Assembly (NCBI RefSeq): GCF_039614715.1
Contig: NZ_CP154857.1
Span: 310,001 to 374,000 of the forward strand
From: Microbacterium sp. AZCO
GTDB lineage: Bacteria > Actinomycetota > Actinomycetes > Actinomycetales > Microbacteriaceae
Direction: 5' to 3'
DNA length: 64,000 nucleotides
Both the position numbers and the translations under genes were made by a program. How positions within the stretch are numbered: position 1 is the first letter of the stretch; each line of letters opens with the position of its first letter. A model generated the notes under the pieces. That model searched no databases and was not told where the DNA came from. It worked only from the letters and a program-made list of their open reading frames with translations. Below are positions 1 through 13,707 of the stretch, piece by piece.

Positions 1-436
1 CGGCGATCGCGGCCTCACGCCAGGCGCGGTTCGTCGGGGTGCCGAGGCCGGCCGTCATGGCGAAGACGCTGTCCTTCAGCTGCCCGTAGTTGGCGGCGGC
101 CTTCTGCGGGTCGTAGGCGTCGTCGAGGGCCTTGATCTCGACCTTGCGGGTCTTGCCGTCGCCGAACTTCACGCCGCCGTCGGCGTTCTTCGCGCCGAAG
201 TAGGCGGTGATGCCCGCGACGGTGCAGGTGCCCGGGCCGGCTGTCGCGCCCGACAGGGGCGTCGTGATGCCGAGGGTGATCGAGTCGTCGGTGATGCCGG
301 GGCTCGCGGCGGCGGATTCGCCGCCGCTGGCTCCGCCGTTGTCTCCGCCGCGGGTGCATCCGGCGACGAGCAGGGCGACGATGCCCAGGCCCGCGACGAC
401 CGACGCGGCCCGCATCCTCATGCGGTGTGCGCTCAT
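1..436 (-). CDS. Branched-chain-amino-acid-type ABC transporter substrate-binding lipoprotein (partial, C-terminus outside window)
   Basis: This is the extracellular solute receptor of the ABC importer encoded by the four genes upstream of it. The first 145 codons are visible. A basic start and a hydrophobic stretch end in the lipobox LLVAGC, with the lipidated cysteine at residue 27, followed by a Gly/Ser-rich linker. The mature start (ITDDSITLGITTPLSGATAG) is typical of LivJ/LivK-like Peripla_BP_6 receptors. The ATG overlaps the stop of the LivM-like gene (ATGA), so it is probably translated as part of that operon. The substrate cannot be read from the fragment. The family handles branched-chain amino acids, amides and also aromatic acids, and the adjoining aromatic-catabolism genes favour an aromatic acid (inference). 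Confidence 0.85.
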   Translation of the reverse strand, partial: MSAHRMRMRAASVVAGLGIVALLVAGCTRGGDNGGASGGESAAASPGITDDSITLGITTPLSGATAGPGTCTVAGITAYFGAKNADGGVKFGDGKTRKVEIKALDDAYDPQKAAANYGQLKDSVFAMTAGLGTPTNRAWREAAIA

Positions 437-1503
437 GTGTCTTGCCTTCTCTCTTGTGGATCGGTGGGTGGGGGATGAGGTGCGTCCGGCGGACCGGCCA
501 TGGCGGGGGTGGATGCCGCGACCCGGGCGCCGTCGTCTCGCCGACGCCGGCGCCTCCGGCGCAGCACGCGGGGGAGCGACACGAGCCCTCCCGGGAGGAT
601 GAACAGCACGAGCAGGAGGATCGCGCCCTGCAGGACCGTCGTGAGGCTCGGATCGATCTCGTTGGTGAGCTGCGGCACGAGCACGTAGTACGCGCCGCCC
701 AGGAGCGAGCCGACGATGCTGCCGGCGCCGCCGATGACCATCGACGCGACGAGCGTGATCGAGTGCCCGAAGTTGAGGGTCTCGGGCGACGTGTACTGGA
801 TGACGACCATGTACAGGAAGCCGCTGACCCCGCCGAGAAGCGACGCCACGGTGAAGGCGAGCACCTTGTAGCGGTACGGCGAGATGCCCATCGACGAGGC
901 GACGGCCTCGTTGCCCTTCACGATCGCGAAGGCGCGGCCGTACTTGCCCCGCACGAGATTGCGCGTGAGGAGGAAGGAGATGCCGCCGATCAGCAGGACG
1001 ATGTACAGCTGCCACTGGTCGTTGTAGAGGCCGGTCCACGCGGGCGCGTCGGTGAAGCGCGCGGACAGGCCCTGGGATCCGCCCGTGAAGTCCGACAGGC
1101 GCTTGGCGAGCGGCACGCCGACGATCGGCAGGGCGATCGTGACCATCGCGATGGCCAGCCCGCCGAGGCGCGCGGCCGCGAGGGCGACGAGCAGGCCGAC
1201 GACGGCGGGGATGAGGCACGTCAGGGCGAAGACGAGCACGATGTTCCAGCCCTGCTCGACGCCGTAGGCCGTCACGTACGCGCCGAGGCCCACGAAGAAG
1301 ATCTGCCCCAGGGACACCTGGCCCGTGTAGCCCATCACGACGTTGAGGCCGAGCACCGCGACGGCGAAGACGCCGATGCGGGCGATCGTGAGGTTGGCGA
1401 ACTCGGGGAGGAGGAGGGGCAGGACGACGATCGCGATCACGACGAGCGCGGCAGCGGCCCAGCGCACCCAGGGCCGGCGGAAGAAGGTCGAGGTGGCGGA
1501 CAT
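433..1503 (-). CDS. LivM-like branched-chain-type ABC transporter permease
   Basis: Inner-membrane permease of 356 residues forming half of the translocation channel of a HAAT (LivHMGF-type) importer. The N-terminus has a short basic segment and then hydrophobic helices beginning AAALVVIAIVVLPLLLPEF. The LivM-type signature region LGLNVVMGYTGQVSLGQ and the cytoplasmic coupling region around FAIVKGNEAVASSMGI are both present. The C-terminus is a long Arg-rich tail (about 40 residues) unusual for the family. The start was placed at the ATG that overlaps the stop of the LivH-like gene (TGATG). The stop overlaps the receptor gene start. It is the fourth gene of a five-gene operon read towards the window edge. 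Confidence 0.9.
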   Translation of the reverse strand: MSATSTFFRRPWVRWAAAALVVIAIVVLPLLLPEFANLTIARIGVFAVAVLGLNVVMGYTGQVSLGQIFFVGLGAYVTAYGVEQGWNIVLVFALTCLIPAVVGLLVALAAARLGGLAIAMVTIALPIVGVPLAKRLSDFTGGSQGLSARFTDAPAWTGLYNDQWQLYIVLLIGGISFLLTRNLVRGKYGRAFAIVKGNEAVASSMGISPYRYKVLAFTVASLLGGVSGFLYMVVIQYTSPETLNFGHSITLVASMVIGGAGSIVGSLLGGAYYVLVPQLTNEIDPSLTTVLQGAILLLVLFILPGGLVSLPRVLRRRRRRRRDDGARVAASTPAMAGPPDAPHPPPTDPQERRQDT

Positions 1504-2384
1504 CAGACGCGCACCACCGTCTTTCGGCCGAACAGCCCTTGGGGGCGGATGATCAGCACGACGAAGATCATGATGAAGGGCACCGCGATCTTGAGGTCGT
1601 GGCCGATGAACGGCACATAGACGGCGGCGAGGTTCTCGAGCACGCCGATGAGCCATGCCGCGATGACGACTCCGATGGGGCTCGTCAGCCCGCCGATGAT
1701 GACGGCGGCGAGGGCGTAGACGAGTGCGCCGTCCATCATGTTCGGCGTGAGCGTCAGCTGCGGCGCGACGAGCGCTCCCGCGACGGCGCCCAGCCCTGCC
1801 GCGAGGCCCCAGCCCACCATGAGCAGGCGCCCGACGGGCATGCCCGAGAAGGCGGCCGACTGCGGGTTGATCGCGACGGCGCGCAGCGCCAGGCCGAGCT
1901 TCGTGCCGAGGAACAGCACCTGCAGCAGCACCATGATCGCGACGATCACGAGGATCGTGCCGAGCGAGCGGATGCTGATGACGGCGCCCGCGATCGTGAT
2001 CGTGTCGAGCGGGAACAGCGACGGGAAGAGCCTGTTGTTGTACGTCCAGATCCACGCGCACACGCCCGTCACGAGCGTGAGGAGCCCGATCGTCACGACG
2101 ACGGCCGTGTCGGGGTCGCCGCCCTCGAACTTGCGGATGAGAAGCCGCTCGACGAGCGCGCCGATCACGAACGAGACGGCGATCGAGATCAGGATCGCGA
2201 GGATGAGCGGCACGCTCCAGGCGGTCAGCTGCCACGCGATGTAAGCCGACAGCACCGCCATGCCGCCCTGCGCGAAGTTGATGAGCCCCGTCGCCTGATT
2301 GACGAGCACGATCGCGAGAGCCAGGGCTGCGTAGATCGAGCCCGTCGAGAGGCCGTCGATGACGAGCTGGATGAAGGTCCCCAC
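1503..2384 (-). CDS. LivH-like branched-chain-type ABC transporter permease
   Basis: Inner-membrane permease of 293 residues that pairs with the LivM-like protein. The N-terminal stretch FIQLVIDGLSTGSIYAALAL and the following LINFAQGG motif are hallmarks of LivH permeases, as is the coupling-loop region GTKLGLALRAVAINPQSAAFSGM. Eight or so hydrophobic helices are visible. The start is a GTG three bases downstream of the LivF-like stop. The 3' end overlaps the livM-like ATG. The length is normal for the family. The substrate is not determined by the sequence; see the operon context for an aromatic acid inference. Confidence 0.92.
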   Translation of the reverse strand: MGTFIQLVIDGLSTGSIYAALALAIVLVNQATGLINFAQGGMAVLSAYIAWQLTAWSVPLILAILISIAVSFVIGALVERLLIRKFEGGDPDTAVVVTIGLLTLVTGVCAWIWTYNNRLFPSLFPLDTITIAGAVISIRSLGTILVIVAIMVLLQVLFLGTKLGLALRAVAINPQSAAFSGMPVGRLLMVGWGLAAGLGAVAGALVAPQLTLTPNMMDGALVYALAAVIIGGLTSPIGVVIAAWLIGVLENLAAVYVPFIGHDLKIAVPFIMIFVVLIIRPQGLFGRKTVVRV

Positions 2385-2387
2385 GCG

Positions 2388-3098
2388 TCAGCCCCCCAGG
2401 TAGGCGCGACGGATCTCGTCCATGCCCTTGAGCTCGGCGGAGGTTCCCTCAAGGACGTTGCGGCCGGTCTCGAGCACCGTCGCAGTGTCCACCAGCGTGA
2501 ACGCGAGGTTGGCGTTCTGCTCGACGACAACCATGGCGATGCCCGACTCGATCCGCAGGCGCCGGATCGCCTCGTACACGGCCTTCGCCGTCGAGGGGGC
2601 GAGACCGAGGGATGCCTCGTCGAGCAGCAGCAGGCGCGGCTTCGACATGATCGCGCGGCCCACCGCGAGCATCTGCTGCTCGCCGCCCGAGAGTGCGGAG
2701 GCGTTCGAGCGGATGCGGTCCTGCAGCTGGGGGAAGAGGTCGAGGCAGTAGTCGATGTCGGACTGGACCCCCTTGCGGTCCTTGCGCTTGTAGGCGCCGA
2801 CGCGGAGGTTCTCCCGCACGGTGAGCTCGCCGAGCGTGCCACGGCCTTCGGGGACGTGCGCGATGCCGAGGCCGGCGACCTGATCCGGCCGGAGGCCCCG
2901 GATGTCCCTGCCGTCGAACACGATGGAGCCGCCCGCCCGCACGGTGCCGCTGATGGCCCGCAGCGTCGTCGTCTTCCCCGCGCCGTTCGCACCCAGGATG
3001 CCGACCGCGCCGCCGTCCGGCACGCTGAGCGACACGCCCTCGAGCACCTGCACCGGCCCGTAGAAGGCGGTGACGTCGGTGAGCTCAAGCAGCGTCAT
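2388..3098 (-). CDS. LivF-like ABC transporter ATP-binding protein
   Basis: Cytoplasmic ATPase of 236 residues that powers the importer together with the LivG-like partner. It shows Walker A GANGAGKTT, a Q-loop region, the signature motif LSGGEQQMLAVGRAI, Walker B PRLLLLDEAS and an H-loop replaced by the VVEQN element usual in LivF. The reading frame overlaps the end of the LivG-like gene by 14 bp from ATG 3098; an in-frame ATG nine bases further upstream (3107) is an alternative start. No unusual features were seen. Confidence 0.92.
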   Translation of the reverse strand: MTLLELTDVTAFYGPVQVLEGVSLSVPDGGAVGILGANGAGKTTTLRAISGTVRAGGSIVFDGRDIRGLRPDQVAGLGIAHVPEGRGTLGELTVRENLRVGAYKRKDRKGVQSDIDYCLDLFPQLQDRIRSNASALSGGEQQMLAVGRAIMSKPRLLLLDEASLGLAPSTAKAVYEAIRRLRIESGIAMVVVEQNANLAFTLVDTATVLETGRNVLEGTSAELKGMDEIRRAYLGG

Positions 3099-3867
3099 CC
3101 GCGGCATCCTTCCCGATGTAGGCCTCGATGACGCGCGCGTCGGACTGCGCCTCGGCGGCGCTCCCCTCCATGAGCGTGCGTCCGTGGTCGAGCACGACGA
3201 CCCGGTCGGTGAGCGCCGCGATGAGGCCCATGTGGTGCTCGACGATGACGACCGTGATGTCGTCGTCGGCGCGGAGGCGCCGCACCGTTGCGATGAGCTG
3301 CTCGACCTCGGCGTGGGGCAGTCCTGCGGCGGGCTCGTCGAGCAGCAGCAGCCGAGGCTGCATGAGAAGCGCGCGACAGAGCTCGATGCCCTTGTGCAGG
3401 CCGTGCGAGAGCTCGTCGGCGGTGAGGTTCGCCGCCCAGCCGAGGCCGTGGCGCTCGAGGAGGGCGAGGGCCTCGTCGCGCAGCGCACGCTCGGACCGGC
3501 TCGTGCGGGGCAGCCGCAGCGACCATTCGCCCGGCCCGCCCGGCAGGCGCGTATGCGCGCCGAGGAGCACGTTCTCGAGGACTGTCGCGTGCAGCTGGAG
3601 CGCGGGATGCTGGAAGGTGCGCGCCAGGCCGTGCTTCGCGAGCGTCGCGGGCCGGGCCCCGCGCACTTCGGCGTCGTCGATCCGGATCGAGCCGGCGCTC
3701 GGCCGGTAGTGCCCGCTGATGCAGTTGAAGAGCGACGTCTTGCCGGCTCCGTTGGGGCCGACGAGCCCGAAGATCTGGCCCGGCGCGACGGTGAACGAGA
3801 CGTCCTGCAGCACCTTGATGCCACCGAACTGCAGACTCACGTCCTGCAGGGTCAGCTGAGCGGCCAT
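3085..3867 (-). CDS. LivG-like ABC transporter ATP-binding protein, first gene of the importer operon
   Basis: Cytoplasmic ATPase of 260 residues. It has Walker A GPNGAGKTSLFNCI, the LivG-typical insertion with the sequence LARTFQHPALQLHATVLENVL, a degenerate signature region (DELSHGLHKGIELCRAL in place of LSGGQQ), Walker B PRLLLLDEPAAGL, and an H-loop VEHHM. The degenerate signature LSHGLHKG is common in LivG proteins. The gene opens a minus-strand operon (G-F-H-M-receptor) that diverges from the DesA-like O-demethylase across a 280-bp region carrying an IclR-type palindrome. This suggests co-regulated uptake of the demethylase substrate (inference). Confidence 0.92.
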   Translation of the reverse strand: MAAQLTLQDVSLQFGGIKVLQDVSFTVAPGQIFGLVGPNGAGKTSLFNCISGHYRPSAGSIRIDDAEVRGARPATLAKHGLARTFQHPALQLHATVLENVLLGAHTRLPGGPGEWSLRLPRTSRSERALRDEALALLERHGLGWAANLTADELSHGLHKGIELCRALLMQPRLLLLDEPAAGLPHAEVEQLIATVRRLRADDDITVVIVEHHMGLIAALTDRVVVLDHGRTLMEGSAAEAQSDARVIEAYIGKDAADDAA

Positions 3868-3961
3868 CGCTCACCTCTCGCATCGTCGCGTCGTCCGGGC
3901 TCGGGCACAAGGGCCGGTCGGGCCGGTCGTCCCATGTCGGGACGCTACGGATTCGCGATCA

Positions 3962-3981
3962 GATTGTCAACGATTTTGGCG
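3962..3981 (+). promoter_or_regulatory. Conserved promoter element shared with the ligM-like promoter
   Basis: The 19-mer ATTGTCAACGATTTTGGCG, read towards the DesA-like gene, matches 16 of 19 bases with TTTGTCTACAATTTTGGCG found at 8758-8776 on the other strand, read towards the LigM-like gene. The two genes are paralogues in one catabolic module. The core resembles TTGT-N2-ACAA operators of FCD-type GntR regulators, but no such regulator is encoded in the window, so the binding protein is unknown. Confidence 0.5.
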
Positions 3982-4068
3982 CGATTACGGATGACGTAGC
4001 CGAATCGTGACCGCGGGATGCGTGAATCACCGCCAGGCTGCCGCGCTCGTCCCCGGGGCGCGGCATCC

Positions 4069-4085
4069 CTTCCGTTGAACGGAAG
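4069..4085. promoter_or_regulatory. IclR-type operator upstream of the DesA-like gene
   Basis: CTTCCGTTGAACGGAAG is a perfect palindrome with 8-bp arms and a central G. The same sequence with one symmetric change occurs before the iclR gene (5526-5546). A TAGCCT -10-like box lies at 4114-4119, so the palindrome centre would be near -49. This position suits an activator site for the demethylase gene, and it could also serve the divergent importer operon. The assignment to the adjacent IclR protein is inference from the repeated site. Confidence 0.6.
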
Positions 4086-4147
4086 CCGTCTCGTCGCCTG
4101 CCCGGCAGCTTCGTAGCCTGGGCCGCACCCGACAGGAAAGGTCGATG

Positions 4148-5518
4148 ATGACATCCGAATCTCTCGCTCAGGCGATCGCGCGCGCGGGCAGCCCGGTGGA
4201 GCTGCTGCGCAACCAGAACTGGCCGGCCTTCACGTTCCCGGTCGCGCCGGAGTTCACCAACTGGCGCGACGAGCAGCGGGCATGGAACACCTCGGTCGCC
4301 CTGATGGACCAGTCGCACCACATGACGCAGCTGTTCCTCGACGGCGCCGACCTGATCCCGCTCCTCGAGTCGATCTCGCCCAACACGTTCGCCACCTTCC
4401 GGCCGGGCGTCGCGAAGCAGCTCATCTCGGTGAATCGGGACGGCTACCTCGTCGGCGACGGCATCCTGTTCTACAACTCCGAGGGGCCCGAGGGTCTCGT
4501 GCTCATCGGGCACCACATCCTCATCGACTGGGTGCGCTTCAACGCCGAGAAGGCCGCCGCGGCGGGCAAGGACGTGCGCCACCGCCTCGAGGCGAACTCG
4601 CACATGCGCCAGGGGCCGCCCACGTTCTACCGGTACGAGCTGCAGGGGCCGAAGGCCGACGTCGTGATGGAGAAGGTCTTCGGCGGGCCGGTGCCCGAGA
4701 TCAGGTTCTTCCACATCGGCGACGTCACGATCGCGGGACGACCGGTCAAGGCGCTGCGCCACGGCATGGCCGGCCAGCCCGGATTCGAGTTCTACGGCCC
4801 GTGGGACGACAACGAGGTCGTGCTCGACGCGCTCCTCGAAGCCGGCGCCGAGCACGGCATCCGTCGCGTCGGGGCGAAGGCCTACTCGTCGTCCCCGCTC
4901 GAGTCCGGGTGGGTGCCGACGCCGTTCCCCGCCGTCTTCGACGACGACTTCGCCGAGTACCGCGAGTGGCTGCCCGCCGCCCGCATCGGCTCGGTGGGCG
5001 GGTCGCTGTACTCGGCCGACGTCCACGACTTCTACATGACGCCGTACGACATCGGCCTCGGGAAGTCGGTGCGCTTCGACCACGACTTCCACGGCCGCGC
5101 CGCGCTCGAGAAGCACGCCGAGAACCAGACGCGCCGCAAGGTCACGCTCATCTGGAACGCCGACGATGTCGCCGCGGTCGTCCGCTCCCAGCTCGAGCCC
5201 GGCACGCCGGCGAAGTACCTCGACTTCCCCAAAGCCCGCTACGGGCTCTACCAGATGGACGAGGTGCTCCGGGACGGCGCACGCGTCGGCATCTCGACGG
5301 ACGCCGGCTACGTCGCGTACGACCAGCTCTACATGTCGCTCGCGACGCTCGACACCGGCATCCCCGACGGTGCGGAGATCGAGGTCGTGTGGGGTGAGAA
5401 CCCCATCTCGAAGAAGGACGGAGTGGATGCCGATCACCGCCAGGTGCGCATCCGCGCGACCGTCGCTCCCGCGCCGTACCACGACTACGCGCGGACGGTC
5501 TATCGCGCGAACGCGTAG
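4148..5518 (+). CDS. DesA-like tetrahydrofolate-dependent aryl-O-demethylase (GcvT fold)
   Basis: Predicted cytoplasmic enzyme of 456 residues that moves a methyl group from an aryl methyl ether to tetrahydrofolate. Its whole length aligns by eye with the LigM-like protein encoded at 7271: N-terminal GSPVELLRNQ, the FTNWRDEQRAW and DQSHHM segments, the central KALRHGMAGQPGFE, LESGWVPTPFPAVF and VRFDHDFHGRAALE, and a C-terminal VVWGENP region. Such proteins have the aminomethyltransferase (T-protein) fold. It is clearly diverged from LigM, which fits the DesA (syringate) branch, but substrate choice is inference. The start is ATG 4148, with AGGAAAGG six bases upstream; ATG 4145 is only three bases from it. 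It diverges from the importer operon and precedes iclR. Confidence 0.75.
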   Translation: MTSESLAQAIARAGSPVELLRNQNWPAFTFPVAPEFTNWRDEQRAWNTSVALMDQSHHMTQLFLDGADLIPLLESISPNTFATFRPGVAKQLISVNRDGYLVGDGILFYNSEGPEGLVLIGHHILIDWVRFNAEKAAAAGKDVRHRLEANSHMRQGPPTFYRYELQGPKADVVMEKVFGGPVPEIRFFHIGDVTIAGRPVKALRHGMAGQPGFEFYGPWDDNEVVLDALLEAGAEHGIRRVGAKAYSSSPLESGWVPTPFPAVFDDDFAEYREWLPAARIGSVGGSLYSADVHDFYMTPYDIGLGKSVRFDHDFHGRAALEKHAENQTRRKVTLIWNADDVAAVVRSQLEPGTPAKYLDFPKARYGLYQMDEVLRDGARVGISTDAGYVAYDQLYMSLATLDTGIPDGAEIEVVWGENPISKKDGVDADHRQVRIRATVAPAPYHDYARTVYRANA

Positions 5519-5525
5519 CCGCAGC

Positions 5526-5546
5526 CGCTTCCGCTGAGCGGAAGCG
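5526..5546. promoter_or_regulatory. IclR-type operator upstream of iclR
   Basis: Perfect palindrome with 10-bp arms CGCTTCCGCT and AGCGGAAGCG around a central G. The inner 17 bp match the site at 4069-4085 except for one symmetric pair. A TACCAT -10-like box lies at 5552-5557, so the centre would sit near -28, overlapping the -35 region. This position suits autorepression. The single-base loop makes it a poor terminator for the preceding gene. Confidence 0.6.
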
Positions 5547-5580
5547 CGATCTACCATGGCGCGGTCGAAGGGGATCGGGA

Positions 5581-6456
5581 ATGGCGCGCGGCTCGGACGG
5601 CGAATCAGTCCTGCACAAGCATCTCCGGGTGCTGCAGGCCTTCGACGCGCTACGGCCGTTCCTCACCCTCACCGAGATCGCCGACGCGGCGGCGCTGCCG
5701 CTGTCATCGACGCACCGCCTCGTCGCGGAGCTCGAGCGCGAAGGACTGCTCGAGCGCATGCCCGACCGCACGTACCGGCTCGGCGTGCGGCTGTGGGAGT
5801 TCGCGTCGCGCACCCCCGGCGCGCTGGGGCTGCGAGAGCTTGCGCGCCCCTGGCTCGAGGCGGTGCACGCGCGCGTGCGGCAGCACACGCAGCTCGGCGT
5901 GCTGAGCGGGCGCGACGTGCTGTTCATCGAGCGGATGTCGACCCGGGATGCCGTGCTCAACCTCACCCTGATCGGCGGGCGGACGCCCCTGGCGGTCAGC
6001 TCGAGCGGGCTCGTCCTGCTCGCCCACGCGTCGGCCGGGCTCGTCGACGACGTCATCGCGGCCGGATGGCCGGCGTACACGGCCGAGACGATCCCCCCGG
6101 GCGCGCTCCGCGACAGGCTGCGGCATGTGCGCGCCGACGGGTTCGCCGTCACGGACGGACAGATCCACCCCGAGTCGCGCGGGATCGCCGTGCCCGTGCT
6201 CGGCCCGCACGGAGCCGTCTACGCAGCGATCGGGGTCGTCGTCGCGAACGACGGCACGTCGCCGCAGCCCGCGATCGAGCTCCTGACGGTCGCGGCGGCC
6301 GGCATCACGCGGGCGCTCGAAGAGGCGTACCTGCCCCACGACGGCACGCGCGACACCGCGCACGGCCTGCGCGCGCTCGTGAGCACGTCGCAGCGCTCGC
6401 TCAACTACTTCGCGTCGCTCGAGGGCGAGGCGCCGGTCGGAAGCGGTCTAGGGTGA
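5581..6456 (+). CDS. IclR-family transcriptional regulator
   Basis: Cytoplasmic DNA-binding regulator of 291 residues. The N-terminal winged helix-turn-helix covers about residues 10-75, with LTEIADAAALPLSSTHRLVAEL as the HTH and RMPDRTYRLGVRLWEF as the wing. The C-terminal IclR effector domain follows, with LARPWLEAVHARVRQHTQLGVL and the conserved IHPESRGIAVPVLGPHGAVYAAIGVVV region. IclR proteins often control aromatic acid catabolism and bind a small aromatic effector. Two matching palindromes, one 43 bp before this gene and one before the DesA-like gene, are its likely sites. The next gene begins 7 bp after its stop. The effector is unknown; syringate, gallate or a derivative is a reasonable guess. 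Confidence 0.88.
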   Translation: MARGSDGESVLHKHLRVLQAFDALRPFLTLTEIADAAALPLSSTHRLVAELEREGLLERMPDRTYRLGVRLWEFASRTPGALGLRELARPWLEAVHARVRQHTQLGVLSGRDVLFIERMSTRDAVLNLTLIGGRTPLAVSSSGLVLLAHASAGLVDDVIAAGWPAYTAETIPPGALRDRLRHVRADGFAVTDGQIHPESRGIAVPVLGPHGAVYAAIGVVVANDGTSPQPAIELLTVAAAGITRALEEAYLPHDGTRDTAHGLRALVSTSQRSLNYFASLEGEAPVGSGLG

Positions 6457-6463
6457 GCACTCG

Positions 6464-7240
6464 ATGACGACGATCGCGATCCTCGGTCTCGGCGAGGCCG
6501 GGCGCCTCTACGCCCGCGGACTCGGCGACGAGGGCGCCGTCGTGCGCGGGTTCGACCCGCACCACGTGCTCGGCGATCCCGCGATCCTCCAGGTCTCGAC
6601 GCTCGGCGAGGCGCTCGCGGGGGCCGACGTCGTCCTCAGCCTCGTCGGCGGCGCGGCCGCGGCATCCCTCGCCCGTGAAGCCCTTCCGCTCGTGCCGAGG
6701 GCCGCCGTCTACGCCGACCTCAACACGGGGTCGCCGGAGCTCAAGCAGGGCGTGGCCGCGATCGCCGCGGATGCGGGCGTGCCCATGGCCGACGTCGCAG
6801 TGCTCGCGCCCGTGTACCGGGCGGCCCATCACACCGAGCTGCTCGCGAGCGGGCCCGGTGCGCCGGTGCTCGCGGAGCGCCTCGCGCCGTTCGGCGTGCC
6901 CATCGCCGTCGTCGAGGGCGGCGCGGGGGAGGCGGCCCGGCTGCGGCTGCTGCGCAGCGTCGTCATGAAGGGACTCGCGGCGCTCGTCCTCGAAGGCCTC
7001 GGTGCGGCGCGGGCCGCAGGCGCCGAGGAGTGGCTGCACGACCAGATCGCGGCGGAGTTCGGCCCCGACGGCGCTGCGCTCGTCGACCGGCTCGTCGAGG
7101 GCACGCTTCGGCACGCCGTCCGGCGCGAGCACGAGGTGCGCGATGCGCTCGCCGCCCTCGAGGCGACGGGCGAGCCGTCCGACATGACGCGCGCGGCACT
7201 CGTCTGGTTCGAGCGGATCGTCGCGTCGCAGCACGAGTGA
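6464..7240 (+). CDS. NAD(P)-dependent dehydrogenase with DUF1932-like C-terminal domain
   Basis: Protein of 258 residues in the 6-phosphogluconate/3-hydroxyisobutyrate dehydrogenase-like superfamily. A Rossmann motif GLGEAG lies at residues 7-12. The substrate-binding region has DLNTGSPELK rather than the canonical D-x-P-V-S-G. The all-helical C-terminal part (about residues 155-258) resembles DUF1932. It is probably co-transcribed with iclR (7-bp gap). Its substrate cannot be inferred from the sequence. In this context it might oxidise a ring-cleavage aldehyde or another aromatic-derived intermediate, but this is speculation. Confidence 0.75.
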   Translation: MTTIAILGLGEAGRLYARGLGDEGAVVRGFDPHHVLGDPAILQVSTLGEALAGADVVLSLVGGAAAASLAREALPLVPRAAVYADLNTGSPELKQGVAAIAADAGVPMADVAVLAPVYRAAHHTELLASGPGAPVLAERLAPFGVPIAVVEGGAGEAARLRLLRSVVMKGLAALVLEGLGAARAAGAEEWLHDQIAAEFGPDGAALVDRLVEGTLRHAVRREHEVRDALAALEATGEPSDMTRAALVWFERIVASQHE

Positions 7241-7263
7241 CGGGATGCCACGGCATCCCGTCA
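7238..7263. terminator. Bidirectional terminator hairpin
   Basis: A 12-bp inverted repeat (TGACGGGATGCC and GGCATCCCGTCA with a 2-nt centre) lies between the convergent dehydrogenase and LigM-like genes and includes the stop codon of the former. The GGGATGCC core recurs in other hairpins of this window. Confidence 0.6.
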
Positions 7264-7270
7264 CCTTCCC

Positions 7271-9636
<2,366 letters not shown>

Positions 9637-9667
9637 ACTGGGCCCCCGATCGGGTGGGGGCGACCGG

Positions 9668-10378
9668 ATGAGGCCTCCCGTCATCGTCACCGACATCGCG
9701 CGCGCGGATGCCGCGACGATCGACGCGCTCGCCGTGCACGGCGTCGCGACCGTGCACGAGGCGCTCGGACGCACGGGACTCGTCGGCCCGGGCATCCGTC
9801 CCATCCAAGACGGCGCGCGGATCGCCGGGTCGGCCGTGACGGTGCTGTCCGCGCCCGGCGACAACCTCATGATCCACGCGGCGATCGAGCAGTGCCGCGC
9901 GGGAGACGTGCTGGTCGTCGCGACGACCTCGGCCTCGAGCGACGGGGCCTTCGGCGACCTCTTCGCGACCGCCCTCACCGCCCGCGGCGTGCGCGGACTC
10001 GTCACGACGACGGGGGTCAGGGATATCGCCGACCTCCGAGCGATGGGATTCCCCGTCTGGTCGAGCGCCGTCCACGCGCAGGGAACGGTCAAGGCGACGG
10101 CCGGGTCGGTCAACGTGCCCGTGACGGTCGCGGGAGCGACGGTGCGGCCGGGAGACGTCGTCATCGCCGACGACGACGGCGTGGTCGTCGTGCCCCGGCT
10201 CGAGGCGGGCGCCGTCCTGGCCGCGGCTGATGCGCGCGTCGCGAAGGAGACCGGCGACCGGGAGGCCTACGGCTCGGGCGCTCAGCTCAGCCTGGACCGC
10301 AAGAATCTCCGGGGCCTGCTCGCCGAGCTCGGCGTGACGTACATGACGCAGGCGGAATACGACGATGGCGAGCGCTGA
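9668..10378 (+). CDS. ligK: 4-carboxy-4-hydroxy-2-oxoadipate aldolase/oxaloacetate decarboxylase
   Basis: Protein of 236 residues in the RraA-like HMG/CHA aldolase family (LigK, GalC, ProA). It cleaves 4-carboxy-4-hydroxy-2-oxoadipate to pyruvate and oxaloacetate with a divalent metal, and often decarboxylates oxaloacetate as well. Family features seen are GDLFATALTARGVRGLVTTTG and the catalytic GVRD with R118 and D119, plus the C-terminal RPGDVVIADDDGVVVVPR. The C-terminal helix extension is typical of hexameric LigK. It starts 31 bp after the galB-like stop, and its 3' end overlaps the tautomerase start by 14 bp. Confidence 0.9.
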   Translation: MRPPVIVTDIARADAATIDALAVHGVATVHEALGRTGLVGPGIRPIQDGARIAGSAVTVLSAPGDNLMIHAAIEQCRAGDVLVVATTSASSDGAFGDLFATALTARGVRGLVTTTGVRDIADLRAMGFPVWSSAVHAQGTVKATAGSVNVPVTVAGATVRPGDVVIADDDGVVVVPRLEAGAVLAAADARVAKETGDREAYGSGAQLSLDRKNLRGLLAELGVTYMTQAEYDDGER

Positions 10379-11480
10379 GGCCGACCTCGATGCGGCGGTG
10401 CGCGACGGCATCCGCTGCATGCTCCTGCGGGGCGGCACGTCGAAGGGTGCCTACTTCCTGGCCGACGACCTCCCCGCCGATCCCGCCCTTCGCGACGACC
10501 TCCTGCTGCGCATCATGGGCAGCCCCGACCCGGCGCAGATCGACGGCATCGGCGGTGCGCATCCGCTCACGAGCAAGGTCGCGATCGTGTCGCCGTCGGC
10601 GGCGCCGGAGTTCGACGTCGACTACCTCTTCCTTCAGGTCGTCGTCGACGAGCCGGTCGTGAGCGACGCCCAGACGTGCGGCAACCTCCTCGCCGGCGTC
10701 GGACCGTTCGCCGTCGAGCGCGGACTCCTCCCGGCGGGCGGCGACGAGACGCGCGTGCGCATCAGACTCCTCAACACGGGGGATGCCGCGACCGCCGTCT
10801 TCCCGACCCCCGGAGGCCGCCCCGACTACGCGGGCGACGAGGCGATCGACGGCGTCCCCGGCACCGCCGCGCGCATCGCCCTCGAGCTGTCCCCCGGCGA
10901 CCGGCCGCTGCTGCCGACCGGTCACGTCGTCGACGAGGTCGCGGGCCACGAGGCGACGCTGATCGACAACGGGATGCCGGTGGTGCTCCTGCGCGCCGCC
11001 GAGTTCGGCGTCGCCGGCGACGAGAGTCCCGCCGAGCTCGAGGCGCGAGACGACCTGCGCGCTGCGGTCGAGGAGGTGCGGCTCGCCGCCGGACCACGCA
11101 TGGGGCTGGGCGACGTCGCGAGTGCGACCGTGCCCAAGATGTTCCTCCTCTCGGCGCCGCGCGACGGCGGTGCGGTCTCGACGCGCGCCTTCATCCCGGC
11201 CCGCGTGCACACCTCGGTGGGGGTGCTCATGGCGGCATCCGTCGCGGCGGGCATCAGCATCCCGGGCGCCGTGGGCTCCGACCTCGCGCGGGTGCCGGCA
11301 TCCGGTCCCGTGCTCATCGAGCATCCGTCGGGCTCCTTCCCGGCCCTCGTGCACGTCGGGCAGGACGACGACGGCGTCTGGCGGGGCACGTCGACCTCGA
11401 TCCGCACCGCCCGCAAGCTCTTCGACGGCACCGTCTTCCCGCGCCCCGCCGCCTCCTCGAAAGGGTCCGTCCATGACTGA
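10365..11480 (+). CDS. galD: 4-oxalomesaconate tautomerase (PrpF family, GalD-like)
   Basis: Protein of 371 residues in the PrpF family of diaminopimelate-epimerase-fold isomerases. The N-terminal motif CMLLRGGTSKGAYF (Cys18) and the middle motif QTCGNLLAG (Cys105) are the conserved family positions. PrpF relatives isomerise aconitates; GalD interconverts keto and enol forms of 4-oxalomesaconate formed by gallate ring cleavage. The position between the CHA aldolase and a ring-cleaving dioxygenase supports the GalD assignment over PrpF. The C-terminus has HVGQDDDGVWRGTSTSIRTA, close to the family pattern. The dioxygenase start overlaps its 3' end by 8 bp. Confidence 0.88.
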   Translation: MASAEADLDAAVRDGIRCMLLRGGTSKGAYFLADDLPADPALRDDLLLRIMGSPDPAQIDGIGGAHPLTSKVAIVSPSAAPEFDVDYLFLQVVVDEPVVSDAQTCGNLLAGVGPFAVERGLLPAGGDETRVRIRLLNTGDAATAVFPTPGGRPDYAGDEAIDGVPGTAARIALELSPGDRPLLPTGHVVDEVAGHEATLIDNGMPVVLLRAAEFGVAGDESPAELEARDDLRAAVEEVRLAAGPRMGLGDVASATVPKMFLLSAPRDGGAVSTRAFIPARVHTSVGVLMAASVAAGISIPGAVGSDLARVPASGPVLIEHPSGSFPALVHVGQDDDGVWRGTSTSIRTARKLFDGTVFPRPAASSKGSVHD

Positions 11481-12423
11481 TTCGACCGTGTTCGACATCG
11501 CGCATCTCGGCAATGTCGAGCTGCTGACGCCCGAGTTCGAGGGGAGCCTCTGGTTCTTCCGCGACCTGCTCGCGATGCGGGTCGTCGCCGAGCAGGGCGG
11601 CTCGGTGTTCCTGCGGACGTGGGACGAGTACGAGCTCTACACGATCAAGCTGACACGGTCGGATGTCGCGGGGGTGGGCCGCACGTCGTTCCGCGCTTCG
11701 TCGCAGGACGCGCTCGAGCGGCGGGTCGCCGCGATCGAGGCGACGGGACTGGGGGAGGGCTGGGTCGACGGCGAGGTCGGCACCGGGCCGACCTACGCGT
11801 TCCGCGACCCCGACGGGCATGCGATGGCGCTGTACTACGAGACGGAGCGCTACGTCGCCGGCGGCGAGGACCGTCCGGCCCTGAAGAACCAGGCGTCCGC
11901 GTTCCCCGGCCGCGGGGTCAACGCGCGTCGGCTCGACCACATCAACTACCTCGCGAAGGACGTCGAGGCGAACGGCGAGTTCCTCGCGACGGCGCTCGGG
12001 ATGCGGGAGTCGGAGCGGATCCGCCTCGACTCCGGGAAGTACGCCGCGTGGTGGTTCCACTTCTCACTGAAGTCGTACGACGTCGTCTACTCCGACGACT
12101 GGACGAAGCACGGCAACCGCCTGCACCACGTCGCCTTCGCGCCCGACACGCGTGAGGACATCCTGAAGGCGGCCGACATCTTCCTGGAGAACGGCATCCA
12201 TATCGAGTCCGGCCCGCACAAGCACGCCATCAACCAGACGTTCTTCCTCTACGTGTGGGAGCCCGGCGGCAACCGCATCGAGTTCGCCAACGCCGGAGCC
12301 CGCCTCCTGCTCGACCCCGACCAGCCGGTCGTGGAGTGGTCCGAGGCGGAGCGCCGCAAGGGTCAGGCGTGGGGCATGAAGACGATCGAGACCTTCCACA
12401 CCCACGGCACGCCCGTGGTGTGA
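11473..12423 (+). CDS. Type I (VOC) extradiol ring-cleavage dioxygenase, probable gallate-pathway enzyme
   Basis: Protein of 316 residues made of two vicinal-oxygen-chelate modules, the architecture of catechol 2,3-dioxygenases. The Fe(II) ligands can be placed in the second module: His156 (RLDHINYL), His218 or His219 (NRLHHVAF) and Glu270 (GGNRIEFA). Their spacing equals that of XylE (153, 214, 265). Overall length is normal. The gene is the last of the galB-ligK-galD operon, with an 8-bp overlap, so it most likely makes 4-oxalomesaconate from gallate, or cleaves 3-O-methylgallate or protocatechuate. Known gallate dioxygenases (GalA, DesB, LigAB) belong to the unrelated LigB superfamily, so substrate choice needs testing. 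AAAGGG lies before the ATG. Confidence 0.8.
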   Translation: MTDSTVFDIAHLGNVELLTPEFEGSLWFFRDLLAMRVVAEQGGSVFLRTWDEYELYTIKLTRSDVAGVGRTSFRASSQDALERRVAAIEATGLGEGWVDGEVGTGPTYAFRDPDGHAMALYYETERYVAGGEDRPALKNQASAFPGRGVNARRLDHINYLAKDVEANGEFLATALGMRESERIRLDSGKYAAWWFHFSLKSYDVVYSDDWTKHGNRLHHVAFAPDTREDILKAADIFLENGIHIESGPHKHAINQTFFLYVWEPGGNRIEFANAGARLLLDPDQPVVEWSEAERRKGQAWGMKTIETFHTHGTPVV

Positions 12424-12573: not shown

Positions 12574-13707
12574 CTACTTCCAGACGTCGCCGGCGATGTC
12601 GACGACGCGGCGGATCTTCGCCCACTGCTCGTCCTCGGTGAGGAGGTTGCCCTCCTCCGTCGAGGCGAATCCGCATTGGGGGCTGAGCGCGAGCTGGTCG
12701 AGCGGCGCGAACTCGGCGGCCTCGTCGATGCGGCGCTTCACGACGTCGGCGTCTTCGAGCTCGCCCGACTTCGTCGTGATGAGGCCCAGCACGACGCGCT
12801 TGTCGCCCTTCGGCAGGAAGCGCAGCGGCTCGAAGCCGCCGGCGCGCTCGCTGTCGTACTCGAGGAAGTAGCCGTCGTAGTTCGTCACGCCCAGCAGCTG
12901 CTCGGCGACCGGCTCGTAGCCGCCCGACGAGATCCACGTCGAGCGGAAGTTGCCGCGACACACGTGGGTCGTGACGGTGAGGTCGTCGGGCTTGCCGTCG
13001 AGCACGCGGTTGAGCAGCGTCGCGTAGCGCTCGGCGATGCCTTCGGTGTCGATCCCGCGCTCCCGAGCCTTCTCCAGCTCGACGTCGCTGCACAGGTAGG
13101 CCCACGCGGTGTCGTCGAACTGCAGGTACCGCGCGCCGGCGTCGTAGAAGGCCTGCACGGCGTCGCGGTATGCCTGCACGAGGTCGTCGGCGATCGCCGC
13201 GTGCCCGTCGTACGCCGACGCGGCGATGTGGCCCGGCTCGACGCGGAAGTCGAGCACGGTCGGCGCGGGGACCGTGAACTTCGGCGTCACTCCGGCCCGG
13301 TCTGCCTGCTCCTTGAGGAAGCGGAAGTGCGCGAGGAAGGGGTGCGCGTCGTTGAACCGGATGGGGCCTGACACGTGCACGCCCCGGGGCTTTGTCTGCA
13401 CGCCCTGGAACTGGATGCCGTGATCCAGCTCGACGATGTCGACGCCGTCGAGCAGCCCGAAGAAGTCGAAGTGCCACCACGATCGGCGGAACTCGCCGTC
13501 GGTGGCGAGCTGGAGTCCGGCATCCCGCTCCTTGGCGACGAGGTCCGCGATCGCGGCATCCTCGATCCCGCGGAGCTCGTCCGCCGACAGCTCGCCGTCG
13601 GCGTGGCGGCGCCGCGCCTCGGCGACGGCGGCCGGTCGCAGGAAGCTTCCCACGATGTCGGCGCGATACGGGGCGCGCTGGGTCAGGGCGGAGCTGTCGT
13701 GGGTCAC
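12574..13707 (-). CDS. Compact MetE-like (cobalamin-independent) methyltransferase
   Basis: Protein of 377 residues corresponding to the C-terminal, catalytic barrel of MetE (YxjG/YxjH-like or core-MetE group); the N-terminal half of classical MetE (about 750 residues) is absent. It has the N-terminal ADIVGSFLRP segment and the zinc-ligand regions THVCRGN and LSPQCGF. MetE-like barrels move methyl groups to a thiol such as homocysteine from methylfolate or methylcobalamin. A GTG start lies 6 nt after a TACGAT -10 box, so the mRNA is probably leaderless. It converges on the gallate operon. A role in draining methyl groups from the O-demethylases is attractive but only inferred; a free-standing methionine role is the alternative. 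Confidence 0.78.
   Translation of the reverse strand: MTHDSSALTQRAPYRADIVGSFLRPAAVAEARRRHADGELSADELRGIEDAAIADLVAKERDAGLQLATDGEFRRSWWHFDFFGLLDGVDIVELDHGIQFQGVQTKPRGVHVSGPIRFNDAHPFLAHFRFLKEQADRAGVTPKFTVPAPTVLDFRVEPGHIAASAYDGHAAIADDLVQAYRDAVQAFYDAGARYLQFDDTAWAYLCSDVELEKARERGIDTEGIAERYATLLNRVLDGKPDDLTVTTHVCRGNFRSTWISSGGYEPVAEQLLGVTNYDGYFLEYDSERAGGFEPLRFLPKGDKRVVLGLITTKSGELEDADVVKRRIDEAAEFAPLDQLALSPQCGFASTEEGNLLTEDEQWAKIRRVVDIAGDVWK

Follow-up and report, generated by a model that had tools for sequence, protein, structure and literature searches.

How Microbacterium sp. AZCO might break down methoxylated aromatic acids such as syringate is the question raised by a 64,000-nucleotide stretch of its genome, comprising bases 310001–374000 of a complete one-contig assembly of 4.23 Mb (this whole stretch is called the window below). 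A reading made from the sequence alone had recognised at the left end of the window a contiguous set of genes for a liv-type importer, two GcvT-fold O-demethylases, an IclR regulator, galB-ligK-galD and an extradiol dioxygenase, and our profile searches recovered all of them, contiguous and in the listed order, with the importer genes on the minus strand (1–3867; Table 1). These genes probably form an island for the breakdown of methoxylated acids of the gallate type, in which the ring would be cleaved by a non-homologous VOC-fold replacement of GalA/DesB. On balance, we also favour the broader proposal that the dioxygenase stands for a second, non-homologous gallate dioxygenase family, consisting of type I enzymes with a Tyr in place of the catalytic His and a Lys two residues before it. 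Such enzymes, which carry the annotation 'VOC family protein' or catechol 2,3-dioxygenase, would take the place of GalA/DesB in gal operons across Actinomycetota, Alpha- and Gammaproteobacteria; in Microbacterium they would be joined with demethylases and an importer as an island leading from syringate to central metabolism.

The dioxygenase contains only the domains PF00903/PF13669 and no LigB domain (PF02900), and no PF02900 match of the LigB family was found in the whole genome by a search whose controls gave matches in 4 of 14 genomes. A type II dioxygenase of the GalA/DesB kind in the window was rejected on these grounds. The AlphaFold model of the protein (mean pLDDT 83.3, with residues 298–316 under 50) matched type I extradiol dioxygenases in Foldseek, the best being 3lm4 and AphC (7q2a, 36% identity). 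The dioxygenase is a type I (VOC-fold) extradiol enzyme and not of the GalA/DesB/LigAB kind, and because it comes from another family, the island is not a transplanted copy of the SYK-6 or Pseudomonas pathway. The closest solved chain by sequence was 9wgj (358 bits, 51% identity), which was deposited as 'Catechol 1,2-dioxygenase', a name that misfits its fold; its function and a publication on it were not found in the literature search, and it was absent among the best 50 fold matches listed from a structure library extending to April 2026.

The metal ligands His156, His219 and Glu270 are kept, as is Tyr260. In a residue alignment set of 14 sequences including the window protein, Tyr202 aligns with His200 of homoprotocatechuate dioxygenase (HPCD) with no nearby gap, and the other 13 members as well as 9wgj carry the same residue; His occupies this position in AphC, the Thermus and Rhodococcus NJ-530 proteins, HPCD and both paralogues of the strain's own genome. 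Among the best 120 of 7031 homologues scored, all 120 have Lys138, Lys200 and Tyr202, and at position 296 there is Lys in 110 of them, Arg in 7 and Gln in 1; 9wgj shares Tyr202, Lys200 and Lys138. HPCD Arg243 corresponds to Ser or Thr here (Tyr in genome G225, Leu in 9wgj) and HPCD Arg292 to Lys or Arg. We speculate that the loss of Arg243 and the gain of Lys200 would fit C4–C5 cleavage with the ring seated otherwise than homoprotocatechuate in HPCD, whose His200 has been altered in many solved variants, judging by structure titles. In the dioxygenase tree, the deep branches around 9wgj, the Roseomonas/Methylobacterium sequences and the AphC group are unresolved, and the Tyr202 set is unsupported as one clade.

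The genomic neighbourhoods of dioxygenase relatives were examined by an order survey of 149 genomes anchored on the dioxygenase rather than on a demethylase. Eight genomes had a match at E ≤ 1e-60, namely six from other genera, the strain's own genome and G069 (GalB 1.9 kb away). LigK and GalD lie in a block beside the dioxygenase in 5 of the 6 genomes from other genera; the block also holds GalB in G139, and in G028 a member of the amidohydrolase family (PF04909) that we read as LigJ. Matches were present in 80 plasmid records as well, 11 of which were examined, hand-picked rather than chosen at random. Among the plasmid relatives with 54–61% identity, six of nine have GalB, LigK and GalD nearby (A. 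tumefaciens pAt, A. vitis, Roseibium, Thioclava, Pantoea and Nonomuraea, the last unannotated and read by tblastn), and the operon on Agrobacterium tumefaciens pAt has the order GalB-VOC-LigK-GalD-tannase, with a liv importer and a DUF1932 gene. Roseomonas and Methylobacterium carry LigK 7–9 kb off together with a DUF1932 gene, with no GalB or GalD match, and neither of the two relatives with 40–42% identity, in Thermus and Rhodococcus NJ-530, is accompanied by gal genes; the Thermus gene lies among other meta-cleavage genes. The dioxygenase was also sought by whole-genome search in four Sinomonas/Tersicoccus genomes with demethylases and no dioxygenase at the locus, and three of them (G243, G244, G245) carry it elsewhere with 84–85% identity, beside LigK and GalD in G245, beside PurU, MetF and a DesA-like gene in G244, and beside neither of these sets in G243. 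The linkage of dioxygenase and gal genes is conserved in Actinomycetota, Alpha- and Gammaproteobacteria.

We considered whether the protein could be a conventional 2,3-dioxygenase for catechol or alkylcatechols that lies beside gal genes by chance, and regard this as highly improbable. Its nearest curated model is indeed catechol 2,3-dioxygenase TIGR03211, where it scored below the cut-off (305.2 of 320.2 bits), and the nearest folds are AphC and a 2,3-dihydroxybiphenyl dioxygenase; however, the identity to AphC amounts to 36%, with different invariant residues including Tyr202 and Lys200, and chance would have to account for a linkage conserved in three bacterial groups. Two further features of these neighbourhoods were observed: dioxygenase relatives in G139 (L086), G135 (L088) and G225 (L085) adjoin a different importer, read as binding protein, permease and ATPase, and in G225 the genes of two FAD monooxygenases, a PobA-like and a phenol-hydroxylase-like one, lie alongside.

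A single cluster of this kind in a Microbacteriaceae genome had been thought a novelty, and a search for the same gene order in other actinobacterial genomes had been proposed. A one-genome-per-species scan with the DesA-like protein yielded 62 loci, mostly from Microbacterium, plus Sinomonas, Naasia, Tersicoccus, Agromyces and others. Because gene prediction was incomplete at several loci (few genes or none were called in L041, L047 and L062), genes were counted by tblastn with at least 40% identity and at least 30% coverage. All four Liv genes were present in 39 of the 62 loci and LigM, GalB, LigK and GalD in 20, 17 of which also had the dioxygenase; the full set (four Liv genes, a DesA-like gene with at least 60% identity and all five others) was found in 16. 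Loci L021, L026 and L049 have GalB and no dioxygenase, and their fetched stretches stop in or just past GalD. In a genus survey of 99 genomes (E ≤ 1e-60 for the dioxygenase and the GcvT-type demethylases, E ≤ 1e-30 for GalB), each of the three genes occurred in 25 genomes and all three together in 24, leaving G225 with the dioxygenase alone, G240 with GalB alone and G165 with the demethylase alone. The pairwise co-occurrence gave a Fisher p of about 1e-20 per pair, which is only indicative, as the genomes are related and phylogeny was ignored. In all 24 genus genomes with both genes, GalB is separated from the dioxygenase by 1770–1933 bp, enough for LigK and GalD to fit in, and LigM adjoins GalB (lower coordinates 0.9–1.7 kb apart). 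This gene grouping is not due to chance, and the cluster is widespread in Microbacterium and its relatives rather than rare. A DesA-like gene of the window's clade was found in 20 of the 25 dioxygenase-bearing genus genomes, on the same contig in 18; because it is less constant across the genus, the core of the cluster is LigM-GalB-LigK-GalD-dioxygenase, and the importer and the DesA-like gene are frequent additions. Two DesA-like copies with one internal TGA are possibly broken (G222:C16:62675-64039 and G182:C1:235691-237055).

Gallate is the best-supported substrate for ring cleavage. Its cleavage leads to 4-oxalomesaconate in one step, and protocatechuate 4,5-cleavage requires an oxidation; because GalD, GalB and LigK handle 4-oxalomesaconate, the gene set suits gallate. 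Products of the tannase family release gallate or ferulate, and gallate is further favoured because a tannase/feruloyl-esterase family gene lies within the cluster in 6 of the 62 loci (L009, L010, L014, L015, L028 and L055; two of the six, L009 and L028, were confirmed by a Pfam check) as well as in the Agrobacterium operon, and because LigM, which would convert 3-O-methylgallate to gallate, is the constant neighbour in the genus. The sequence-only reading had preferred gallate for a different reason, namely the missing LigC and LigI genes for protocatechuate 4,5-cleavage. These were not recognised among the named cluster genes, and no genome-wide search aimed at LigC/LigI was made; the argument is weak by itself, because an aldehyde dehydrogenase of the cluster could replace both enzymes. 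The preference for gallate thus stands on the other evidence.

If the dehydrogenase did so, protocatechuate formed from vanillate by LigM would be cleaved to 4-carboxy-2-hydroxymuconate semialdehyde, which the aldehyde dehydrogenase would convert to the enol of 4-oxalomesaconate in place of LigC/LigI, leaving the rest to GalD, GalB and LigK. This fits with LigM as the constant demethylase and with the presence of the aldehyde dehydrogenase in 23 of the 62 loci (tblastn), its gene following directly after that of the dioxygenase in L020, L027, L028, L032, L048 and L057. We nevertheless consider this route unlikely. The dehydrogenase passed no cut-off among the 25 best of 40 models, tannase genes are among the neighbours, and in G232 and G174 the LigM-GalB-LigK-GalD-dioxygenase block has no DUF1932 and aldehyde dehydrogenase genes within or adjoining it. 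Moreover, the strain has its own protocatechuate 3,4-dioxygenase genes at 3.31 Mb, whose alpha and beta products score above the equivalog cut-offs (174 of 126.25 and 335.9 of 296.4 bits). They lie 15.8 kb from a second LigM gene and beside genes for PcaC (172.7 of 155.7, above cut-off) and for PcaB-like and PcaF-like proteins that both stay below cut-off (339.8 of 355.75 for the former), with a 4-hydroxybenzoate 3-monooxygenase above its subfamily cut-off nearby (491.6 of 351). The 3,4-dioxygenase together with the second LigM gives vanillate and protocatechuate a separate route.

It is very unlikely that the dioxygenase cleaves 3-O-methylgallate instead of gallate, with LigM serving vanillate. 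Strain SYK-6 also cleaves 3-O-methylgallate, according to one report (PMC12314914), in Rhodococcus opacus the genes of an alpha/beta hydrolase, an isomerase-like protein and a LigB-type dioxygenase accompany a DesA-like gene in a layout that fits such a branch, and in G244 the dioxygenase and DesA-like genes adjoin with LigM outside the stretch. On the other hand, LigM keeps its place next to GalB in every genus genome with both genes, the R. opacus cluster contains LigM as well (899.8 of 580 bits), and in Agrobacterium a tannase accompanies the VOC enzyme with no demethylase in the stretch.

The LigM and DesA-like proteins (DEMETHYLASES) are the two GcvT-fold demethylases of the cluster. Both were analysed in a tree of 26 rows; a PF01571 match was found, and the methyl-transferring Tyr, presumably LigM Tyr247, is kept in 26 of 26 rows. 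The naming of the first protein as LigM-like was confirmed, since it passes the LigM model by a wide margin (Table 1) and groups with SYK-6 LigM in a clade of 8 rows (100/100 support). The second LigM of the genome, at 3.33 Mb, scores 870 of 580 bits; MetF and PurU lie upstream of it, and downstream there is a PadR-like regulator. The protein encoded at 4145–5518 had been called DesA-like, and its membership in DesA was rejected: it stays below the cut-offs of both the DesA model NF047633 (477.7 of 800 bits) and the LigM model NF047885 (440 of 580), and the tree places it outside DesA. A plasmid protein of Novosphingobium pentaromativorans passes NF047633 with 849.9 bits. The DesA-like protein forms a clade of 6 rows (100/100) with sequences from Sinomonas, Tersicoccus, Naasia and two other Microbacterium, which sits in a group of 16 rows (96/96) without LigM rows or the Novosphingobium DesA.

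In a study on N. aromaticivorans, LigM acts on 3-methylgallate and vanillate and not on syringate, and DesA acts on syringate, more slowly on vanillate and not on 3-methylgallate (PMC8091115); two enzymes are therefore expected for syringate. Syringate is a plausible substrate of the DesA-like enzyme, because an R. opacus plasmid homologue with 54–56% identity sits with the same downstream pathway genes. This cluster (L103, plasmid pRop44186_a, 477592–496947) carries the DesA-like demethylase and a LigM annotated as hypothetical, with pabB, folP, MetF, PurU, a FolD-like gene, the above-mentioned three genes, GalB and LigK as neighbours; it links the DesA-like type to the same downstream pathway and may represent a complete syringate route of its own that depends on folate and uses a type II enzyme. 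It is possible, if doubtful, that the DesA-like enzyme has a substrate other than free benzoic acids, such as an aldehyde, an ester or a further methoxyphenol, which would make the module a wider methoxyphenol funnel. This would agree with its scores under both curated cut-offs, with Phe31 and His122 (LigM numbering), where DesA and the LigM proteins of SYK-6 and the window have Tyr and Arg, residues taken to bind the substrate carboxylate, with the aldehyde dehydrogenase of the cluster and with the DesA-like genes in the L042, L050 and L052 stretches, where gal genes are missing. GcvT relatives are also described to use other substrates, such as SesA of a Sinomonas acting on lignans (PMC5547118). 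The R. opacus homologue, however, shares Phe31/His122 and sits with LigM, LigK, GalB and a LigB-type dioxygenase.

For the methoxylated gallate-type acids that we favour as substrates, the following scheme can be drawn. The liv-type importer would, from its position, take up the aromatic acid; the DesA-like enzyme would transfer the first methyl group to tetrahydrofolate, giving 3-O-methylgallate from syringate, and LigM, by its family function, the second, giving gallate. The dioxygenase would then open gallate between C4 and C5 to 4-oxalomesaconate, as its context, its residues and the lack of a type II enzyme suggest, and GalD, GalB and LigK would, following their family functions, convert this to pyruvate and oxaloacetate. 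The neighbourhoods point to the MetE-like protein, together with MetF and PurU at the second LigM locus, as possible recyclers of methyl-folate; such a methyl-recycling neighbourhood likewise exists on Novosphingobium pLA3. The IclR regulator and a GntR regulator outside the window may control the cluster. The syringate-to-pyruvate scheme of the sequence-only reading keeps its module feeding 4-oxalomesaconate, gallate as the probable compound cleaved and its importer in the cluster, with the DesA-like protein as a candidate syringate demethylase.

Several observations weigh against this scheme. The DUF1932 protein has no step in it, the aldehyde dehydrogenase could provide the missing oxidation for protocatechuate, the pocket residues Phe31 and His122 depart from those of LigM and DesA, and the nearest curated model of the dioxygenase names another substrate. 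By reading of translations, the G232 stretch contains an alcohol-dehydrogenase-like gene past the importer, and that of G174 ends with a fragment resembling an aldehyde dehydrogenase, some 7 kb away from LigM, so that either genome may still have a dehydrogenase for this step. The linkage also has gaps. The dioxygenase is present in 25 of the 62 loci, and 8 of these 25 have no GalB in the stretch: L037, L038 and L061 have LigK and GalD, L020 and L048 only GalD, and L023, L027 and L057 none of the three. No gal gene lies near the dioxygenase in G135 and G225 or near its relative in Chimaeribacter, and 5 of the 25 dioxygenase-bearing genus genomes have no DesA-like gene of the window's clade. 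Finally, the VOC enzyme is not always the only candidate. It shares a cluster with a type II enzyme in G148 and Roseomonas, and LigB-family matches occurred in 5 of 11 dioxygenase-bearing genomes tested (G225, G135, G244, G246 and G247, with none in G243, G245, G158, G174, G232 and G194). G242 has LigM, the DesA-like gene, the importer and four LigB matches, and its best dioxygenase match reaches only 30%.

GalA of Pseudomonas putida is a type II dioxygenase. The island resembles the P. putida gal operons (galTAP, galBCD) in its GalB-GalC-GalD block for 4-oxalomesaconate, as described in PMC12314914, and differs from them by the VOC-fold enzyme after galD, the liv-type importer instead of GalT and the added demethylases. 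With the syringate pathway of SYK-6 and Novosphingobium (DesA, LigM, DesB, LigU, LigJ, LigK), as described in two reports, it has in common two GcvT-fold demethylases, gallate as an intermediate and a tautomerase-hydratase-aldolase sequence to pyruvate and oxaloacetate (PMC6888825, PMC12314914). Unlike in that pathway, the dioxygenase has another fold, the hydratase is of the GalB and not the LigJ type, an importer is in the cluster and the DesA-like protein falls outside the DesA model. AphC, catechol 2,3-dioxygenase and HPCD share the fold and the 2-His-1-Glu metal site with the window enzyme, which is set apart by Tyr202 for HPCD His200, by Lys200, Lys138 and Arg294 and by its gal-gene neighbours. 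Actinobacterial conversion of gallate to 4-oxalomesaconate has been described for PcaA of Pseudarthrobacter, which, unlike the window enzyme, is a type II protocatechuate 4,5-dioxygenase of a protocatechuate pathway (PMC8431788). The R. opacus cluster has LigM, LigK and GalB in common with the window, and its DesA-like demethylase belongs to the same broader group; it differs by its LigB-type dioxygenase and folate-synthesis genes.

Reportedly, a syringate-consuming actinobacterium was described by Ravi et al. in 2019 (Bioresour Technol 285:121327), going by the title in reference lists; the strain is reportedly Microbacterium sp. RG1. LigM- and DesA-like genes have also been sought in metagenome-assembled genomes, actinobacterial ones included (PMC9296663). 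Syringate use by actinobacteria is therefore already in print by title, and the type I gallate dioxygenase may be the new part. Such an enzyme was not found in the literature searched, which is weak evidence of absence as the search covered few subscription papers, and the finding may be known already because the structure of a relative, 9wgj, has been solved by others. If the proposal is true, gallate and syringate breakdown would be under-counted by genome surveys for LigB-type gallate dioxygenases, because proteins of this kind are annotated elsewhere as catechol 2,3-dioxygenase or 'VOC family protein', and natural type I enzymes with Tyr at the HPCD His200 position would offer a handle on the choice of cleavage site in a trihydroxylated ring. 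The recurrence of the core in unrelated bacteria suggests a second, overlooked route for tannin and lignin acids, and for lignin use, Gram-positive hosts with importer, two demethylases and ring-cleavage block in one island would be practical starting points.

Table 1. Genes of the proposed island in the window of Microbacterium sp. AZCO, with window positions and the matches behind each assignment.
Feature	Positions	Strand	Basis
liv-type periplasmic binding protein, 5' part	1–436	−	PF13458 above cut-off, both halves
LivM-type permease	433–1503	−	PF02653 104 bits, cut-off 26.8
LivH-type permease	1503–2384	−	PF02653 114.5 bits
LivF-type ATPase	2388–3098	−	PF00005 92.4 bits
LivG-type ATPase	3085–3867	−	PF00005 and PF12399 above cut-off
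DesA-like GcvT-fold (tetrahydrofolate-type) O-demethylase, own clade	4145–5518	+	PF01571, models, tree, residues
IclR-family regulator, nearest PcaR/PcaU/PobR subfamily	5581–6456	+	PF01614, PF09339
NAD_binding_2/DUF1932 protein	6464–7240	+	PF09130 48.8 bits (cut-off 25), PF03446 24.2 (cut-off 21)
LigM vanillate/3-O-methylgallate O-demethylase	7271–8674	−	NF047885 899 bits, cut-off 580
GalB-type (PIG-L family) 4-oxalomesaconate hydratase	8881–9636	+	PF02585 86.7 of 28.2
LigK/GalC 4-carboxy-4-hydroxy-2-oxoadipate aldolase	9668–10378	+	NF006731 312.2 of 179
GalD 4-oxalomesaconate tautomerase	10365–11480	+	NF033377 442.9 of 440
Type I (VOC-fold) extradiol dioxygenase, candidate gallate dioxygenase	11473–12423	+	PF00903 65.2 bits
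MetE-like (PRK06520) methyltransferase, candidate methyl-acceptor step	12574–13707	−	PF01717; NF005085 563 of 313

The gal enzymes were assigned with differing ease. GalD passes its model barely, LigK is below the cut-off of a second model, TIGR02798 (285.6 of 304.5), and GalB, for which no NCBIfam model was above cut-off, was recognised by its PIG-L fold in a gal-operon context and has 55% identity to a Pantoea protein annotated as galB. The liv binding protein has 421 amino acids in all when read across the left window edge, and the end at 436 was calculated from this length. Beyond this edge, the cluster extends with the rest of the binding protein, the GntR regulator and the aldehyde dehydrogenase; the latter two, the DUF1932 protein and the MetE-like protein, whose gene was detected in 13 of the 62 loci by tblastn, had not been named before. 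The IclR regulator scores below the cut-off of TIGR02431 (114.8 of 284.75 bits), and an open reading frame at 5556–6467 was rejected as a gene, as it has no family match and overlaps the true IclR gene.

A DUF1932/NAD_binding_2 protein is encoded beside gal genes in very different bacteria (the window, L084, L099, L100, L101, L107, L108 and L109), and we know of no redox step in the gallate pathway that would need it. A role as a LigC substitute was not supported, as the protein occurs with GalB-LigK-GalD in G240, where no such dioxygenase was found, and is absent from the G232 and G174 stretches. In G240 (L084, G240:C3:1223001-1243000), the GalB-LigK-GalD-DUF1932 genes adjoin an ABC importer, and searches of this genome gave no VOC dioxygenase and no LigB gene; the substrate of its gal genes may be a non-aromatic tricarboxylate. 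Near the demethylase genes of four loci, a GTP cyclohydrolase I-like protein, which would belong to folate synthesis, was recognised by reading the translations (L034 3476–4063, L045 3450–3986, L051 3471–4058 and L026 15201–15821).

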